DNA from: Ignavibacteriales bacterium
GTDB lineage: Bacteria > Bacteroidota > Ignavibacteria > Ignavibacteriales > SURF-24
NCBI GenBank assembly: GCA_026390815.1
Contig: JAPLFH010000033.1
Location: 186,001-250,000, forward strand
DNA: 64,000 bases
Direction: 5' to 3'
In this document: positions 3,517 through 45,484 of the stretch, piece by piece
How the letters are laid out: every line of letters starts with the position of its first letter
How positions within the stretch are numbered: the stretch's first letter is position 1
Program-made: the position numbers and the translations under genes
The notes under the pieces: generated by a model
Told to the model about the DNA's origin: nothing
The model's input: the letters and a program-made list of their open reading frames with translations, nothing else
Database searches by the model: none

Positions 3517-3810
3517 CTGCTTAAAAATTACTTATTACAGTTTGTTAAGTCAAGTTACTTATTCTAATACAAATATTTTAGAATTTAAGTTCCTGTTACT
3601 TTACAACTTGGTCAATGAAATTTAATCCGCCAATAAATTTGCCTTAAATGGTTAATGAATTACCACTTTATTTTTCTTATATTTCGTTCAGTTCGATGAT
3701 GAAATTTTATTCTTAACACTATGAAATCCTTTAAAGAGTAATTAACAAGTTATAAAAAATAAATTAAGTAGAAAGATAGGACATAGGTAACTCAAGTTGG
3801 GTAATTGCTG

Positions 3811-3826
3811 TCCCGATTTATCGGAA
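3811..3826. repeat. TCCCGAT palindrome in RNase P RNA, copy 1 (P3 position)
   Basis: TCCCGATTTATCGGAA, a stem of CCGAT/ATCGG with a two-base loop just before the CR-I block, where hairpin P3 is expected. It differs from the repeat consensus only in its last arm. Confidence 0.6.
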
Positions 3827-3876
3827 GAGAGGAAAGTCCGAACTCCCAAGAAAAAAGTGCCGGGTAACGCCCGGGG

Positions 3877-3894
3877 TCCCGGTATATATCGGGA
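3877..3894. repeat. TCCCG palindrome in RNase P RNA, copy 2
   Basis: TCCCGGTATATATCGGGA, arms TCCCG and CGGGA around an AT-rich loop, between CR-I and the CACAGAAAA block. Part of the set of look-alike hairpins in this RNA. Confidence 0.65.
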
Positions 3895-4021
3895 TACGGA
3901 AAGTGCCACAGAAAAAATACTTTCCCGGTTAAAACCAAGTTTTAATTGGGATAAAGGTGAAAAGGCAGGGTAAGAGCCTACCGCTCCGGTAGTAATACCG
4001 GGGGTGTCAATAACATTGGCA

Positions 4022-4038
4022 TCCCGCATTTTGCGGGA
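4022..4038. repeat. TCCCGCA palindrome in RNase P RNA, copy 3
   Basis: TCCCGCATTTTGCGGGA, a 7-bp perfect stem with a three-base loop immediately before the conserved ACGGCAAACCCC block. Confidence 0.65.
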
Positions 4039-4079
4039 CACGGCAAACCCCACTTGGAGCAAGATCAAGTAGGAAAGTA

Positions 4080-4097
4080 TCCCGATTTCGATCGGGA
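4080..4097. repeat. TCCCGAT palindrome in RNase P RNA, copy 4
   Basis: TCCCGATTTCGATCGGGA, a perfect 7-bp stem capped by TTCG, in the region of the P16/P17 or adjacent variable helices. Confidence 0.7.
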
Positions 4098-4177
4098 GAT
4101 AGGCGTTTGCCTTAAATACTTTCCGGGTAGATCGCTTGAATCCCGGAGCAATCCTGGATCTAGATAAATAATTACCG

Positions 4178-4195
4178 TCCCGATTAACATCGGGA
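4178..4195. repeat. TCCCGAT palindrome in RNase P RNA, copy 5
   Basis: TCCCGATTAACATCGGGA, a perfect 7-bp stem with loop TAAC. It sits between TAGATAAATAATTACCG (CR-V region) and ACAAAATTCGGCTTATAG, where well-known RNase P RNAs have only a few bases. Confidence 0.7.
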
Positions 4196-4260
4196 TTACA
4201 AAATTCGGCTTATAGACGTGAGTAACCTATGCTCTTTTTCTACTTTTTGGAATCCATACA

Positions 4261-45455: not shown

Positions 45456-45484
45456 AAAAGTCCCGATAAAAACCGGGACCCAAT
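45456..45484 (-). terminator. Rho-independent terminator of the RRM gene
   Basis: On the minus strand GGTCCCGGTTTTTATCGGGAC, then TTTTTTATTTT: a GTCCCG/CGGGAC stem and a T-run, 22 nt beyond the RRM stop. Its TCCCG arm resembles the repeats inside RNase P RNA. Confidence 0.82.

Follow-up and report, generated by a model that had tools for sequence, protein, structure and literature searches.

A short dispersed palindrome that appears to have repeatedly overwritten tolerant hairpins of RNase P RNA in Ignavibacteriales

In the RNase P RNA gene (rnpB) of an Ignavibacteriales bacterium, at least four of the outer stems, and probably six, are short hairpins of nearly identical sequence. On balance, we favour the explanation that tolerant hairpins of this RNA have been repeatedly overwritten by one short dispersed palindrome, TCCCG-N3-10-CGGGA, which is common in Ignavibacteriales and occurs also elsewhere in Bacteroidota. 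The peripheral helices P3, P9, P12, the P14 extension, P16.1 and P19 would then have been replaced hairpin for hairpin.

The window, i.e., the whole 64-kb stretch of DNA that was analysed, contains one class A RNase P RNA at 3789-4228, found by cmscan with the RF00010 covariance model (244.9 bits, compared to a gathering score of 100; E 1.7e-78). The model was covered over its full length and the conserved regions are present; by covariance-model criteria, this is predicted to be a normal class A RNase P RNA gene. It is followed by an ORF of 583 aa, which we take to be RecJ-like. The helix names used here are our reading of the structure line of the covariance model. The features in the window are as follows.

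3789..4228, + strand: rnpB, class A RNase P RNA (RF00010, model positions 1-367)
3811..3826, + strand: P3 hairpin TCCCGATTTATCGGAA, an imperfect member with pairing limited to the core (covariance-model alignment)
3877..3894, + strand: P9 hairpin TCCCGGTATATATCGGGA, with a perfect 7-bp stem
3923..3951, + strand: P12 hairpin TCCCGGTTAAAACCAAGTTTTAATTGGGA, probably a decayed sixth member (two G-U pairs)
4022..4038, + strand: second hairpin of the P14 extension, TCCCGCATTTTGCGGGA; the extension is missing from many relatives
4080..4097, + strand: hairpin between P16 and P17 (P16.1 by position), TCCCGATTTCGATCGGGA (covariance-model alignment)
4178..4195, + strand: P19 hairpin TCCCGATTAACATCGGGA, between the 3' strand of P2 and CR-V (covariance-model alignment)
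45461..45478, + strand: the sole other TCCCG..CGGGA palindrome in the window, outside rnpB, TCCCGATAAAAACCGGGA; the other strand reads TCCCGGTTTTTATCGGGA

The initial annotation of this DNA had listed about five TCCCG...CGGGA hairpins in the RNase P RNA and had proposed their placement with a covariance model. The alignment placed them in P3, P9, the P14 extension, P16.1 and P19. Four are perfect (3877, 4022, 4080 and 4178), and those at 4080 and 4178 have, as had been noticed, identical TCCCGAT/ATCGGGA arms, for which there is no other such match in the window. The hairpin at 3811 is present but is an imperfect member of the family. The list of copies was real; however, it overlooked P12, the sequence of which (TCCCGGTTAAAACcaaGTTTTAATTGGGA) starts with TCCCGG and finishes with TTGGGA, where CCGGGA would be expected. 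P12 still pairs along its whole length, two of the pairs being G-U, and is therefore probably a decayed sixth member. The copies lie at separate helices, spaced 58-145 bases. There are five perfect TCCCG..CGGGA matches in the window, four of them inside rnpB, compared to a mean of 0.14 and a maximum of 1 in the shuffled window.

We compared rnpB from 58 genomes of the order, our own included, using segments cut at the conserved blocks. Relatives already have these helices, but with unrelated sequences: all palindrome sites are ordinary peripheral helices, at which relatives in the order hold unrelated stems of similar length. At P3, P9, P12, P16-P17 and P19, a helix of at least 4 bp is found in nearly all relatives (at least 51 of 53-54), and at five of the six sites segments that carry the palindrome are no different in length from those that do not (p 0.12-0.94). 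The P14 extension is the sole presence/absence trait (about 31 versus 55-77 nt), and unrelated stems occur there, too. The annotation had named unrelated stems of equal length at the same places as an observation that would count against entry of a mobile palindrome, and this is what the comparison showed. Its statement that the RNA is longer than usual (~450 nt) holds only to a moderate degree, since the gene has 440 nt, compared to an order median of 419 nt, with 46 of the 58 genes being shorter. Likewise, the site beside CR-V, described as normally having a few bases, is P19. Both P19 and P16.1 are among the helices listed for bacterial class A RNAs, and P19 is known in class B as well (PMC2858038); thus, neither is a new site.

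It should be noted that some rnpB genes of the order are unusual in other ways. The P19 region is ~143 nt long at loci L036 and L053 (genomes G016 and G029), with CR-V and P1 at about +483, so that the Rfam match stops early, and P19 of G052 carries an extra 64 nt. The gene at L079 (G045 C387) has no conserved GGTGCAAGGTCAAGCAGAAG segment (P15 region), which is present in the sister genome G011; this is either an assembly error or a damaged gene. G014, although 99% complete, is alone among 59 genomes of the order in having no RF00010 match.

The sharing of arms goes far beyond what chance would give. Across the order, no other 5-bp arm is as frequent in rnpB as TCCCG, with 65 hairpins in 37 of the 58 genomes, whereas each permutation of TCCCG occurs at most 6 times as an arm, and the arms TCCGG, TCCGC and TCCCC occur 13, 6 and 2 times, respectively. 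Outside of the order, the preference is weaker: three hairpins in 1 of 17 genomes from other orders of the class, and 12 hairpins in 9 of 45 genomes from other classes.

The palindrome is over-represented genome-wide, which the annotation had proposed to check by counting the motif elsewhere in the genome. A lack of such over-representation was the other refuting observation that it had named, and the counts show the opposite. Our own genome has TCCCG-N3-10-CGGGA at 57 places and the backwards control, likewise an inverted repeat built from the same bases, at 0. Each of the 59 genomes compared shows an excess of the palindrome, consistent with the earlier view of the hairpins as one repeat family. 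The copies are 15-20 bp long, with a density of about 13 copies per Mb, and 4 of the 57 lie within the 440 bases of rnpB. In 764 kb (contigs C33, C6 and C9), TCCCG and its extensions rank with the strongest outliers when all hairpin arms are compared. Because half-sites on their own show no enrichment and there are only about 13 copies per Mb, a drive similar to that of uptake signals was rejected. Other over-represented arms in the same 764 kb are CCTGCC(T)/(A)GGCAGG and AATACGTATT-like; P19 of G050 and a tRNA copy of G014 contain CCTGCC palindromes.

Some tRNA gene copies and one protein paralogue have been partly overwritten by the palindrome. In a copy of tRNA-Pro the flanks are kept, while the 17-nt anticodon arm has become TCCCGATCAGAAATCGGGA and five T-loop bases have become TCCCGACTAAGTCGGGA; 5' of the intact gene there is a second altered copy. 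The same exchange is found in the same genome in copies of tRNA-Ala and tRNA-Pro(TGG) and in two copies of tRNA-Asp. Spare copies of tRNA-Pro, Ala, Asp and Asn adjoin the intact gene, with the palindrome as the anticodon arm and, sometimes, as part of the T arm. In our own genome (G000), spare tRNA copies are located as follows.

C9:82396-82454 (L002): spare tRNA copy
C41:65205-65313 (L154): spare tRNA copy
C9:104815 (L003): spare tRNA copy
C12:177549 (L005): spare tRNA copy

Those of other genomes are at loci L161-L190. Of 247 genomes searched in the phylum, 12 (our own included) have palindrome/tRNA junctions, 30 in total. At 12 loci that were scanned, an intact tRNA is close by in all except L171, mostly of the matching kind. 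In several genomes the altered copies are in tandem, with five at a spacing of 90 bp (G006) and three at 77 bp (G036).

Small ORFs of GIY-YIG nucleases are located between the intact tRNA and the altered copy at L002, L163, L164, L166, L168 and L190. The ORF at L002 (PF01541, E 8e-19) is on the minus strand (1772-1524) and starts 3 nt after the tRNA; at L163, L164 and L166 the palindrome encodes the C-terminus of the ORF (LVRVPHLRD-stop). Such ORFs were found in 6 of 11-12 genomes with altered tRNA copies, compared to 2 of 200 control windows. We consider them to be a lead, not evidence.

Among sorting-domain paralogues, some have LVNEEKPAGNYEVEF, whereas others have LVNEEIPLSGIAGNYEVEF, with the palindrome in frame. 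Sorting-domain-like paralogues at L107 (G000 C6:200311-210381) have in-frame IPLSG/IPLGG between NEE and GNYEVEF, and their neighbours have NEEKPAGNYEVEF. In the tRNA and paralogue cases, bases were exchanged, not simply added: about 5-17 target bases were swapped for 15-19, and no target duplication, which MITE insertions would leave, was detected by eye in these few cases. A separate observation is a transposase-like ORF at L001 (1501-1517; G000 C6:143084), in which the palindrome is in frame (SRLNRE, in the context PHQ-SRLNRE-HVDIKYV). Related proteins usually read HWH at this place. An empty copy of this transposase was not found in the own-genome sequence examined.

As the palindrome overwrote spare tRNA copies, it probably replaces existing stems and does not add new ones. 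The annotation had allowed that the palindrome "entered, or replaced" helices; replacement survives, whereas entry at new sites with lengthening was unsupported. We infer that the copying behind the tRNA and protein cases, and not convergence, also gave rise to the rnpB hairpins. It would be a short-tract replacement, with no target duplication seen; template switching or gene conversion between hairpins would be expected to leave this pattern, and cut-and-paste transposition would not. Copies may persist in rnpB because one hairpin of 5-7 bp can substitute for another.

Genomes of the same genus can differ in rnpB by whole hairpins. In the pair G006/G054, P16.1 is TCCCGATTCATCGGGA in G006 and an unrelated stem, 22 nt longer, in G054, the genes being otherwise similar; the pair G011/G045 shows a whole-hairpin difference at P12. 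The 17-mer TCCCGCCTAAAGCGGGA is P19 in G011 and P12 in the sister genome G045, and its reverse complement is found in a tRNA copy of G014. Among the genomes compared, the nearest relatives belong to other genera, and no rnpB event was found between near-identical strains.

Convergence is the serious rival to overwriting, although we regard it as less likely. It assumes free compensatory drift together with a lineage-specific mutational or folding preference for UCCCG/CGGGA, with no DNA copied between sites. Many helix differences between sister genomes are compatible with ordinary compensatory change, several being pair-by-pair, and each site was already a variable helix and has kept its length, which favours this explanation. 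Closing UCC/GGA pairs recur at P12, the P14 extension and P19 across the order, and TCCCG may therefore be a local optimum; nevertheless, arms of the same composition, those closing with TCC included, are 5-30 times rarer. Two further results speak for convergence. A dose effect is absent, i.e., the genomic density of the palindrome does not predict its copy number in rnpB (rho 0.14, p 0.29), and the four perfect hairpins of our own rnpB have no exact full-length match among the own-genome copies listed. Against it, the palindrome is also in excess in tRNA copies and protein genes, on which selection for ribozyme folding cannot act, and loops are common to rnpB and other places beyond the null expectation. 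The inner sequences of 14 of the 63 complete rnpB hairpins recur outside of rnpB, among the matches listed, compared to 4.5 on average and at most 13 when loops were redrawn 2000 times. This test is taken as supporting evidence only, because sister genomes are non-independent and the pool outside of rnpB consists of the matches listed.

The strong form of the initial proposal, in which a mobile palindrome was inserted several times, producing new hairpins and a longer RNA, is improbable. It would suit the variable presence of the P14 extension (~30 nt) in relatives and the status of P19 as a length hot spot, evident in G016, G029 and G052; yet the extension can also consist of unrelated stems, both P19 and P16.1 are established helices, and the equal helix lengths with or without the palindrome at five of six sites largely refute this form.

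Mobilization of REP-type elements by a TnpAREP (RAYT) transposase is still less credible. Short palindromes are dispersed in our own genome, which has six Y1_Tnp matches, and TnpAREP genes and REPs occur in Bacteroidetes (PMC6006769). However, no CCCG..CGGG hairpin was found within about 1.5 kb on each side of the six Y1_Tnp genes, and copies of the palindrome also lie within genes. The three strong Y1_Tnp matches have the Y motifs YIKNQ, YIRDQ and YIMNQ and are similar to subclass 1.2, not to the NP type; subclass 1.2 transposases are listed without flanking hairpins, whereas the Y motif of TnpAREP is of the NP type (PMC6006769). That the copies are merely chance hairpins or act as intrinsic transcription terminators deserves practically no credence: two copies (after 5S rRNA in L008, and in L004) are followed by T-rich sequence, but most copies have no T runs (46 flanks), several are in genes or tRNA copies, the four copies inside an essential RNA already refute termination for rnpB, and chance is ruled out by the window shuffles and the genome-wide backwards control.

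If repeated overwriting is right, peripheral helices of an essential ribozyme not only drift but can also be exchanged, in a single event, for copies of a palindrome found throughout the genome. This would bias rnpB phylogenies and covariation analysis, would provide a natural experiment on the exchangeability of RNase P stems, and would point to an unrecognized process of short-tract copying that also reshapes tRNA gene copies across Bacteroidota. A broader and more tentative proposal is that a self-spreading Bacteroidota palindrome of 15-20 bp might overwrite existing RNA stem-loops, each hairpin by another, in rnpB and in spare tRNA copies by short-tract copying; several of the tRNA cases adjoin a small gene for a GIY-YIG nuclease. 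Unrelated RNA genes could then trade hairpins as interchangeable parts.

Several known systems are comparable. Rickettsia palindromic elements occupy intergenic sites, protein genes, where they are in frame, and RNA genes, among them those of the RNase P RNA and tmRNA; they are 105-146 bp long and were described as insertions (PMC2229807). The palindrome studied here is similarly dispersed, in frame in sorting-domain paralogues and in a transposase ORF, and present in rnpB; unlike the Rickettsia elements, it is 15-20 bp long, replaces existing stems, has several copies in one rnpB, belongs to another phylum, and is found in tRNA copies, too. In 1997, Vioque reportedly described short tandem repeats (STRR) in rnpB of heterocyst-forming cyanobacteria. 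These are likewise a genomic repeat family within rnpB; however, the title of that work calls them tandem, whereas here single palindromic hairpins lie at separate helices, not head-to-tail. REPs share short size and dispersal with our palindrome, which differs in lacking a link to a Y1 transposase (for the six Y1_Tnp of our own genome) and in lying inside functional RNA genes. Mobile hairpins of mitochondria (yeast GC clusters and the repetitive hairpin-forming elements of sponges) spread within a genome, some of them in rRNA genes (PMC4478555, PMC2800124). They are similar as short palindromes spreading within one genome, some inside RNA genes, but they are organellar, and GC42 is 42 nt long with an AG target duplication, none being seen for the palindrome here. 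A literature search, mostly of papers available without subscription, found no paper with TCCCGATAGCTATCGGGA or with these tRNA copies. Palindromic elements in rnpB of Rickettsia are thus a known precedent, as repeats in cyanobacterial rnpB are known; within the literature searched, the very short size, the replacement instead of insertion, the four perfect copies within one ribozyme, and the parallel in tRNA copies are new.
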